From positions 1 to 29,819 of the IMG/VR virus record IMGVR_UViG_3300011114_000185: a stretch of 29,819 nt of DNA. One strand, written 5' to 3'. A model generated the notes under the pieces. That model had not been told where the DNA came from. It worked only from the letters and a program-made list of their open reading frames with translations, and did not search any database. The DNA is from a virus. This document shows positions 4,888-16,600 of this stretch, piece by piece (the first letter of the stretch is position 1; the number at the start of each line of letters is the position of its first letter). The position numbers were made by a program, and so were the translations under genes.

Positions 4888-5054
4888 ATGACGAAAAGCT
4901 TGCCCGTGCAATCGAGTGGATGGGGCCGCGCTACGTCTACCACCCTGAGAATCGAGTCCCGCGAATCCCTGTGTCCCACCAGCAGGAACTCCACCGGACT
5001 GACGTTGCCAGCACCTTCAAGCGTGTCAAGAAGTCGATGGAGAAGTCATCGTGA
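4884..5054 (+). CDS. Hypothetical protein, 56 aa
   Basis: Starts at the ATG of an ATGA overlap with the upstream microprotein and ends in a GTGA overlap with the next gene. The protein is basic at the C-terminus (FKRVKKSMEKSS) and contains ARAIEWMGPRYVYHPENR near the N-terminus. It has no cysteines or membrane segment. No family is recognised. The tight coupling at both ends is the main evidence that it is translated. Confidence 0.6.
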   Translation: MNDEKLARAIEWMGPRYVYHPENRVPRIPVSHQQELHRTDVASTFKRVKKSMEKSS

Positions 5055-5548
5055 CACTACGCACTCCAAGGACTGAAGCCGCGCAAGTGTCAATGCTAAG
5101 ACTAGACGGTGACATTGATGAAGTGGTCGCGGCAACTTTCGCACGGCAGCTAGAGCGCGAGTTGATTGCGGCGCAATCGGCAACGGCAGCGCTCCCCGTG
5201 GAAGAAGGGGCCATACAGATGCTCCGCGCCGTCCGCGATTTTCTTGCAGACGATCAGCACAGCAAGTGGCGTTACGTCGAAAGCGGGGAGCAAAACGAGG
5301 ACATGGCTGAGTGGATTGGGAAGATGGACGCGCTGCTTGATCGCCACCGTATGAAAGGGGAGCCAGATCGTCCTGACTGGGCGCAGCAATTGCCGGGGGC
5401 GGAGATATTTGATCGCGCAGCCCGGTACGAGTACATCCGCACACTCAACCCAAGGGAGTTCGCGGCGCTGTATGACGAGGCGTTGCACGGGGATCGGTTC
5501 GACGATCTGGTGGATCGCTATCGTGACGCAGGGGGGCGACAGGAATGA
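5051..5548 (+). CDS. Hypothetical phage protein, 165 aa
   Basis: Starts with GTG in a GTGA overlap. The N-terminal segment, RTEAAQVSMLRLDGDIDEVVAATFARQLERE, resembles an N-terminus found in many phage hypothetical proteins, and the C-terminal segment IRTLNPREFAALYDEAL with FDDLVDRYRD resembles another recurrent phage motif. The middle is an acidic helical region (WRYVESGEQNEDMAEWIGKMDAL). No catalytic motif is visible. Codon use is GCG-rich and the gene lacks CCWGG, unlike the flanking recombination and virion genes. It probably came with the module that ends at 6775. Confidence 0.72.
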   Translation: MTLRTPRTEAAQVSMLRLDGDIDEVVAATFARQLERELIAAQSATAALPVEEGAIQMLRAVRDFLADDQHSKWRYVESGEQNEDMAEWIGKMDALLDRHRMKGEPDRPDWAQQLPGAEIFDRAARYEYIRTLNPREFAALYDEALHGDRFDDLVDRYRDAGGRQE

Positions 5549-13600: not shown

Positions 13601-16600
13601 CGCCTTCAGGAACCCTACGGACAGACTCTCAGAATCATAGAATCCACGGTTGCCCTGGCGCAGGGTCTCTGACTCACCACTGACCTTGTTGCCAACCCTC
13701 TCCATCTCATGGTTCAGCACCTCGGCAATGTACCGGTCAACGCCGGTCATCGAGTTCTCGACCTGATGATCCAGACCGTTCTCGCGCAGCATTGTCTCGA
13801 CCTCGGCATCGGACATGATCCGGCGCACCTTCATCGATCCCGCGATAGGCCAGCCGCCGGCATCCCCTGACGCACTGGGGTTCGTCTTGTAGTCGTAGGA
13901 CTCGTTGGCATCGATCAGTCTGCCGGTGATCCCGCTACGCATGCCGTTCGCCAGGACCGTCGAGGAGTCACTCTCAGCCTGGGTGCGTTCGCGTATGACC
14001 GGAATCTCCACCTCGACCCAGACACGTTGCGACCCCTTCACGCTGGCCTTGCCCTGGTCGAACACCGGCAAGTTCACACCGTGGATGCCAGGACGTTCTG
14101 CCAGTTGTTTGCTGCCAATGCTGGGACGTTGGTTCTCCGCTTTGTACCACTGACCGGTGGTGAACCCTTGCTTCTGCCCTTCCGGTTTGGCATACAACGG
14201 CAGGACGATGCCTGGGCGCGACTCCCTGATCTCCATCAGCTTGTAGGCAGTCCTGGTGCTTGCCGGAACCTGGGACGTTGGCAGCACCTCGTACAGTGGT
14301 CCCATGAACCGGTTGTTGATCGGATTGATCAGTGCCGCGAGATTGGTGTCACCGGACTGGAACAGGCGCGTCTGCTCCTTGGTCAAGCGGGACGGGAACT
14401 CCCTGGACAGTGCCTTGACTGAGGCAGTCTGCATGGCAACTGCCTGACTGTAGTCCTTGGCATAGACCCCAGGTTGCCCCGCCCTGGCTGGATCGTAGAC
14501 CATGAAGACAACATCAGGCTCACCGTTCGCGAACTTCGAATAAAACGCTTTGTTCCACCCTGGTGGTATTTGCGTTTCATCCCAGGGGAGTCTCGACACG
14601 ATCCTGAACCCTGCTTCTGCATAAAGCCTGGGAAGGGTGGTGTCGAATGCGTCCAGCTTCCTGCCGCCATGATCGACGGCAAGCCGGATCAACGCGAGGG
14701 ACGCACCCTTGAGGTTCGGGTCTGCATTGAAGACCGACACGATATCGTCACCCTTGAGGGCAACGCCGGCCTTGCCGCCTTCAGCCAGGAAGGTACGCAT
14801 GCCGGCGTACTCCTCGACTGAGTAGACGTAGACTGAAGCGGAGTTCGGATTCGCCGCCTTGGCTGCCGTGATGGCATCGTGGAAGGACTGCGGGTCAGTG
14901 GTGACCTCTTGGAAGGATGGTGCTGCCTTGCCCTTGGATGCCGCATACTCGACAAACCAAGGGGTTGGGGTTAGGAGATTCCCTGATTCCTCAACTCCTC
15001 CTTCTCCTCGTCCGAAAGCTTGTCGTAGAACTCCACCATCCCCCTGTAGGGATCGAAGTTGCTGTTCTTCTGCGGCGGCGATTCGGGTTTCGAAGTCTGC
15101 ATCGACTGATTCCCTAATCCGACTTGCGTATTGGCCCAGGGATGATTCGGTGAAACCTCCCCCAGCTTTCTTTTGCCCAGGTAAGCCATAATCCTTCTTC
15201 CCTTTGGTGAGTGACTCAACAAACAAGGAGTCTGAAGTGACATCGTGCCGGTCACCCAGGTACTCCGCGATCCTATTACTAAGTGCCAACTCTGTACCGT
15301 GCGGAACGATGATTGCCATCGTGCCGTCTTCAGTCGTATGCCCACCCAGGAGTTCCTTACCCTTCCCGTCAAGCACATTGCTCCGTATCTCACTATACAG
15401 TGCTTCGATGTCTGCCGCAAACATGCTTTTGGGGATGTGAATCTGAACCGTTCCCATCTCCTTGCCGCCCTTGAATGACTCTGGGGAGGTGATCTGTATC
15501 TCATCCTGGCGCAGGGCATACCCAAGAACCTTCGCCAGTTCCTGAATCTTCGCCATTGACGCACCCTTCGTCATCTGGAGGGAGAACCCAGGCCCAGTAG
15601 TGTCCAAGTACCCAGAAACCACTACCTGTAGTTTCCCCTTGAACGAATCGAGCAGACTCCCAGGCTTGCCAGTGCCTTTCGCCGGTTCTGGGTACTGCAC
15701 CCGTCGAGCCACAATCCCCCTGCCGACATCGTGTTCCTGGTCGAACCGTTTCGCCTCGGTGATCGGGTACAGGTACTTCTCGCCGCCGGCCTTGACATCG
15801 AACTCAGACCCCTCTGGAACCAGATGCTGGTCTCGCATGGCGCGGAACTGCTCCGCATCGACCTTGATCGGTTCCCCGATCACCATCGTGCCGATTGCTT
15901 TTGCCGTGCCTTCGCCGGTTCGTACAATCGCGACCATCTTGCCCACATAGGGTCGCAGTGAATCGGTTTCACGGGTCTCGTAGACCTTCTTCCCATCAGC
16001 CAGGAGGTCCGCATACCGCACACCGACAGTCATGTCACTGGCGACATTCACACCCATCTCTGGGAACACCTTGCGGAATGCTGCTTCCTTGCGTTCCTGC
16101 TTGGCTTGATCTGCCAATAGTTCGAACGCAGTGAATGCCCTCATTGCCGCAGACCGCGCAACCTCTTCCACGATTGCGTTGTGGACGTTGTACGGCAGTG
16201 CTTCCAGTCGAGCAGTCAGTGCCGTGCCATACCCGTTCGCGGAGAACGCGACCTTCCTGCCGGTCCAGGTGGTGGCATCCGGCACATAGGACTTGTCCCG
16301 CGAAACCACTGTTGTCTGCTCATGCCCACCCCACCAGTCTGGGTGATCGATGCCGCCAGCCATGTCGCGCACTTGCGTCAGTGCCTCTTCCCTGGTCAGT
16401 GCGCCACGATCAACCTGATCCCAGATGTCCTTGATGGCATTCTGGTTGTCCTTTGTCTTGAAGGTGTCCTTGAACATCCCGCGAATTGCTTCCCAGGTGA
16501 TCGATTGCATCTCGCGAGGGAGGATTCCACGCGCCTCTGCCGCCCTTTTGTACGCCTCAAGATAAATCGGGTACGTCCCAGATACACCGGTCTCGTTCGA

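Follow-up and report, generated by a model that had tools for sequence, protein, structure and literature searches.

A probable overprinted gene in the +1 frame of a giant polyvalent virion protein gene, with conserved counterparts at domain junctions in related phages

Overprinting is familiar from phage genes such as Rz1, which lies inside Rz of lambda, and gene E, which lies inside D of phiX174. Nested genes are well known in viruses (review, PMC8227390). Polyvalent proteins are encoded by phages and conjugative elements and include GNAT acetyltransferases among their components (Iyer et al. 2017, PMC5512222). Here we describe an open reading frame (ORF) nested in the gene for a giant virion protein of the polyvalent type. 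The gene was found on IMG/VR virus record IMGVR_UViG_3300011114_000185, and the stretch analyzed, 29,819 nucleotides of that record, is called the window. The nested ORF is probably a real gene, and related phages encode selected +1 ORFs at the corresponding places.

An earlier note, made from the letters of the window alone, had drawn attention to a 72-codon ORF on the same strand as the giant gene and one base off its frame. The ATG and the TAA were read directly and are as described. The nested frame runs one base ahead of the giant frame. The note had also reported a reversal of codon bias, and its counts were reproduced: across the last 28 codons of the ORF, the third position is G or C 24 times when read in the nested frame but 7 times in the main frame. 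The best 28-codon segment favors the nested frame by a log-likelihood difference of 17.7. Synonymous shuffles of the whole gene, which hold the giant protein and its codon pool constant, did not reach this value (0/1500; mean maximum, -1.2; standard deviation, 2.4). The reversal is the strongest preference for another frame anywhere in the giant gene. The signal is confined to the last ~46 nested codons, and the first 27 favor neither frame strongly. The window thus contains what is expected of an overprinted gene at this level, an ORF in another frame with genome-like codon usage that is unlike chance.

The ORF is intact in a near-identical contig (L001) from metagenome 3300011115. L001 contains two single-nucleotide polymorphisms (SNPs) within the ORF. 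The one at 14989 leaves the nested peptide unchanged but turns a Glu of the giant protein into Lys, and the one at 15030 is nonsynonymous in both frames. This pattern is anecdotal. L001 ends at window position 14959, and 3/8 of its SNPs fall in its last 72 bases, which is perhaps a strain fork.

The nested ORF covers giant residues ~1535 to 1607, the linker that joins a conserved upstream domain to the GNAT domain. Its stop lies about 35 nucleotides ahead of the GNAT domain. The upstream domain was also recovered from podoviruses ctQRb9 and ctEw122 and from 17 more viral contigs, the near-identical one not counted. In the relatives in which the sequence downstream was read, the start of a +1 ORF coincides with a conserved motif of the giant frame, (K/E)K(K/E/Q)(D/E)YDYA, the DNA of which provides a Shine-Dalgarno (SD) site and then an ATG. 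The ATG at 15189 in the window sits at the place corresponding to this start. The relatives' ORFs (family A) have a common N-terminus, MPVRxMTxEE....FGNGxVIFGQKRP, with differing modules behind it. Over these ORFs the ratio of observed to expected synonymous change in the giant frame falls from about 1.1 to 0.3 to 0.5. The most variable codon position shifts at the nested ATG, from giant position 3 to position 1. The window ORF and family A have the start site in common but not the sequence. A further nested +1 family lies upstream of the shared domain and has its own synonymous dip. The L123 member has a peptide similar to the pre-GNAT family's N-terminus (QDEHDxRM).

A scan for the GNAT domain retrieved 80 viral loci. 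Nearly all encode a +1 ORF directly before the domain, with its stop about 40 to 80 bases ahead of it. In a large subset of these loci (family B) the nested peptide has the C-terminus DPIE..A...NPGLTREEAE.MAE.FGF, which is followed by the stop. The last 50 codons of the pre-GNAT ORF are free of stops in 51/51 nonredundant loci against 32 expected, a count that flatters the case, since each locus contributed its longest open stretch near the boundary and five loci without a clear ORF were excluded. Codon usage prefers the +1 frame before the GNAT domain in most of the 51 loci. The GNAT domain is directly downstream of the nested ORF in all 11 phages checked from the 41-locus family B set. These 11 phages are diverse; identity is 52% for the nested peptide, 46% for the giant frame over the same bases, and 65 to 69% for flanking giant-frame sequence. 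Family B and the window ORF have position and frame in common but not sequence. We tried the window peptide as a member of this family and rejected it, because the family's hidden Markov model (HMM) did not place it among the window's top ORFs. A nested gene is not obligatory for the GNAT domain either, an idea rejected on the giants without it (L095 and L097 to L099). Streptomyces phage Lika, in which the GNAT gene is free-standing, has none either, and the same holds, as far as checked, for Haloarcula and Nostoc phages. In L024 and L078 the +1 ORF upstream of the GNAT domain has an unrelated and very protein-like sequence (MT.HREPDWKEWVDFMKENHIPVTRENYLKLMYMGNPP...).

A synonymous-site test, which is independent of the choice of ORF made in the 51-locus count, was done on 20 giants related to Limnohabitans phage DC33 (PQ492659.1; L004). 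This is the per-frame check that the earlier note had proposed, here run in relatives, and giant-frame divergence collapses over the nested ORFs. Pairwise synonymous differences drop from about 0.30-0.35 to 0.03-0.15 at two places, the pre-GNAT ORF and a second +1 ORF that follows the domain. The gene-wide minima of observed over expected synonymous change are the first nested ORF (0.07 of expected) and the second (0.16); the median is 1.05 and the 1% quantile is 0.25. Third-position divergence over the last 28 codons falls from 0.28 to 0.03. Host-frame synonymous suppression, a further mark of an overprinted gene, is therefore present in two groups of relatives. Near position 5581 of L004, the giant-frame motif GYSDEDAPDYANAAA shows suppressed synonymous change, at 0.24 of expected. 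There is no evident ORF at this place, and the dip is possibly a regulatory signal. The DC33 record is filed under Inoviridae, a placement that looks wrong for a 39-kb genome with a giant virion protein of podovirus-like type.

The nested ORFs of the relatives also have starts of their own. An SD match of at least 4 nucleotides precedes 16/17 and 18/22 nested starts in two families, compared with 21% of out-of-frame ATGs. For at least 5 nucleotides the counts are 13/17 and 13/22, compared with 7%. L177 suggests that at least one phage uses a GTG start with a GGAGG site. One nested family also occurs as a free-standing 73-codon gene with its own SD site, at positions 5001 to 5222 of a contig from a Burkholderiales metagenome-assembled genome (L137). 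It is 48% identical to the nested family, and the alignment begins at the first Met. All viral homologs found with this family are nested (41/41). Among 399 genomes of the L137 host order, a profile scan retrieved L137 itself and one weak, stop-broken match and nothing else. Two unknown genes precede the free-standing gene, and type I-E cas3 and cas8e follow it directly, an adjacency that may be coincidental.

Position and frame are conserved in the relatives, start signals are independent, the +1 protein is under purifying selection, and one family has a free-standing homolog. In the window the codon bias is reversed to an extreme degree, and the start and stop lie at sites homologous to those of the relatives. 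We put at roughly 0.85 the probability that the window ORF is a genuine gene, overprinted on the polyvalent virion protein gene in its +1 frame, because it combines a homologous start site, a homologous stop region, the same frame, and extreme codon bias. The nested genes of the relatives are surer than the window case. Translation of the window copy is inferred, as is its role.

Several observations weigh against this reading. An open frame alone is unremarkable, as 50 stop-free codons survive 48% of synonymous shuffles. The window copy has a weak SD site, whereas those of the relatives are strong; its KKDYG motif is two residues shorter than theirs, which weakens the SD spacing. The sole close relative is the near-identical L001, which ends 12 bases past the nested stop. 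The window peptide had no match in phages (tblastn to E=10), PHROGs, Pfam, or PDB. It also had no detectable similarity to the other nested families, by the pre-GNAT HMM or in a poor alignment with the MPVR family. Finally, the GNAT giants L095 and L097 to L099 lack a clear nested ORF.

The lack of a homolog and the 48% survival of an open frame are what would be expected if a fast-evolving linker rich in Gly, Arg, and Glu, with low third-position G+C, merely yields a protein-like second frame. High third-position G+C in +1 is partly automatic in such a linker, since the codons for Gly, Glu, Ala, and Arg have G or C in the first position. Chance of this kind is improbable, given that the shuffles preserve both protein and codon usage and that place, frame, start, and stop all agree with the selected ORFs of the relatives. 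The earlier note had offered another origin, a one-base insertion that fused the end of an ancestral protein to the next domain. In such a fusion the nested frame would be a C-terminal relic, joined by an indel to the GNAT part. Such a scar would explain why the nested stop is near the GNAT boundary and why the bias is limited to the last ~46 codons. A deletion can join these frames, as L037 shows. In L037 and L166 it fuses the upstream giant-frame segment to the nested frame and leaves the GNAT part in a separate frame; it is either a natural variant or an assembly error. A relic would gain stops, however, yet all 51 loci are open, and the relatives keep both frames conserved over long divergence. 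This origin is already contradicted for the nested-ORF family in relatives, and for the window we regard it as a poor prospect.

Ribosomes could instead leave the giant frame for the nested one by programmed +1 frameshifting, which would yield a truncated giant protein ending at 14971. The nested frame is on the same strand with the required +1 offset, and in the window it is also stop-free for 125 codons upstream of the ATG. In many relatives, though, the +1 frame does not stay open far upstream of the nested ATG and is closed within a few to about 30 codons. Nested starts with SD sites are conserved, and the free-standing homolog begins at the same Met; these therefore argue against both the scar and the frameshift, the latter of which seems decidedly improbable. 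Conservation of the bases in relatives by an RNA or DNA signal, with no second protein, is hard to credit at all. The dip without a clear ORF in the DC33 group is the kind of feature it predicts. Against it, wobble over the nested ORFs moves to the third position of the nested frame, conservation is higher for the nested peptide than for the host frame, and one nested family has a coding homolog that stands free. The other possibility raised by the earlier note, a gene nested within and overlapping a virion protein gene, is strongly supported by the relatives. The note had further held that the second frame was or is the one under selection. Selection on that frame is borne out in the relatives, but it does not act there alone, as both frames are constrained.

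The gene would work by independent initiation of ribosomes at the internal ATG. Its product would be a small protein, soluble and 72 residues long, whose C-terminal helix is acidic, and it would be made in addition to the giant protein that is read through the same bases. On this reading the gene is overprinted in a poorly constrained linker between two domains and belongs to a recurring architecture, since in dozens of other phages relatives of the giant protein have small +1 genes where their domains meet. Reinitiation at a giant-frame start past the nested stop was considered and rejected, as the window has no in-frame start nearby. A mechanistic preference for the +1 frame was also rejected, because within giant genes the ATGs in +1 outnumber those in +2 about 13-fold (1564 versus 119).

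The nested products are small and hydrophilic and lie beside effector-like modules. The small protein may bind and restrain the neighboring effector domain (here GNAT), or help to fold or load it, until the particle delivers that domain; this is our leading guess for the role, though less likely than not. Adjacency to the neighboring domain is the sole observation that bears on a pairing of the toxin-antitoxin or effector-immunity kind. The product could alternatively have nothing to do with the effectors, for example as a small early or structural protein whose gene just occupies free coding space. A wider and more doubtful idea is that giant polyvalent virion genes are composites. Each effector module would move together with a small out-of-frame partner gene in the linker, and the partner would keep the effector inactive, or guide its packaging, inside the cell that produces the phage. 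If so, fusing modules into one polypeptide cost the phage none of its antidotes.

The coordinates of the features are collected in Table 1. The window encodes podovirus-type structural genes, including those for a major head protein, tail proteins, an endolysin, and a beta-helix fiber. Segments of the giant protein matched an internal virion protein (PHROG 6651; phrog_6651), DUF7178, and, at the borderline, ASCH. The AlphaFold2 model of residues 1619 to 1795 has a predicted local distance difference test (pLDDT) score of 93.5. Its best PDB matches in Foldseek are all GNATs (1yvo and 3dr8; probability, 1.0; template modeling score, about 0.5). By this model the segment is a GNAT fold and a predicted acetyltransferase. 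The folded model of the joint region has low confidence over the linker but also over the upstream domain, so it supports disorder of the linker only weakly.

Table 1. Positions of the nested ORFs and of the features around them (window coordinates unless a locus is named)
Feature	Position	Strand or location	Basis or remark
Nested ORF, 72 codons plus TAA, +1 relative to the giant frame	14971..15189	minus	ATG at 15189 and TAA at 14973-14971 read directly; codon bias; position homologous to nested ORFs of relatives
Candidate ribosome-binding site, AAGGGAAGAAGGAT	15191..15204	minus	AAGG at aligned spacing 8; AAGGA too close; weak
Giant-frame motif K-K-D-Y-G (AAGAAGGATTATGGC) bearing the nested ATG	15185..15199	minus	Counterpart of K-K-D-Y-D-Y-A in relatives, which carries SD and ATG there
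Giant host gene, 3037 codons	10679..19792	minus	ORF; multidomain polyvalent-type virion protein
Upstream domain, residues 1386-1536	15185..15637	minus	Conserved in relatives
GNAT acetyltransferase domain (predicted), residues 1619-1795	14408..14938	minus	AlphaFold2, Foldseek, phrog_2563
Second nested +1 ORF (MENPQSLPNQEPEV..., 62 amino acids)	L004 6569-6757; relatives L047, L062	behind GNAT domain	Strong synonymous dip
Further nested +1 ORF family	L108 3645, L113 3654, L117 3657, L123 3648, L106 2756, L005 5750	upstream of shared domain	Most with strong SD

Gene finders penalize or forbid large overlaps on the same strand, which leaves a layer of small phage proteins in giant virion genes unannotated in the records examined. 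The gene tables for the retrieved stretches of DC33, ctQRb9, ctEw122, and Microbacterium phages Caron and UtzChips annotate no such nested gene. DC33, Caron, and UtzChips are concrete phages that carry such ORFs, and in several phages the nested start codon could be removed without altering the giant protein. That the nested genes recur between domains suggests a way for domain-shuffled effectors to retain their partners. A literature search with incomplete coverage found no account of genes nested where the domains of polyvalent proteins meet, and an unseen report is possible.

The giant gene resembles the described polyvalent proteins (PMC5512222). It encodes a giant multidomain protein, lies among virion genes, and contains GNAT and other effector domains. 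Nested genes are an extra feature here, and a term search of that paper found neither "overlapping" nor "frameshift." Caron and UtzChips bear the same GNAT domain behind a MuF-type minor capsid module, with a conserved +1 linker ORF (47 amino acids in Caron). These fusions differ in that the host protein is much shorter and the nested peptide is not recognizably related. The embedded lysin gene of mycobacteriophage Ms6 (PMC3111421) is likewise a gene within a gene with internal initiation, but it is in frame with its host gene, whereas the window ORF is in a different frame. As in the overprinted genes of viruses, the second protein is read from the same strand in an alternative frame, has its own start, and places a double coding constraint on the DNA. 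Unlike them, the host here is a multidomain virion gene of ~10 kb, and such genes encode several nested genes each, at domain junctions and from several unrelated families.
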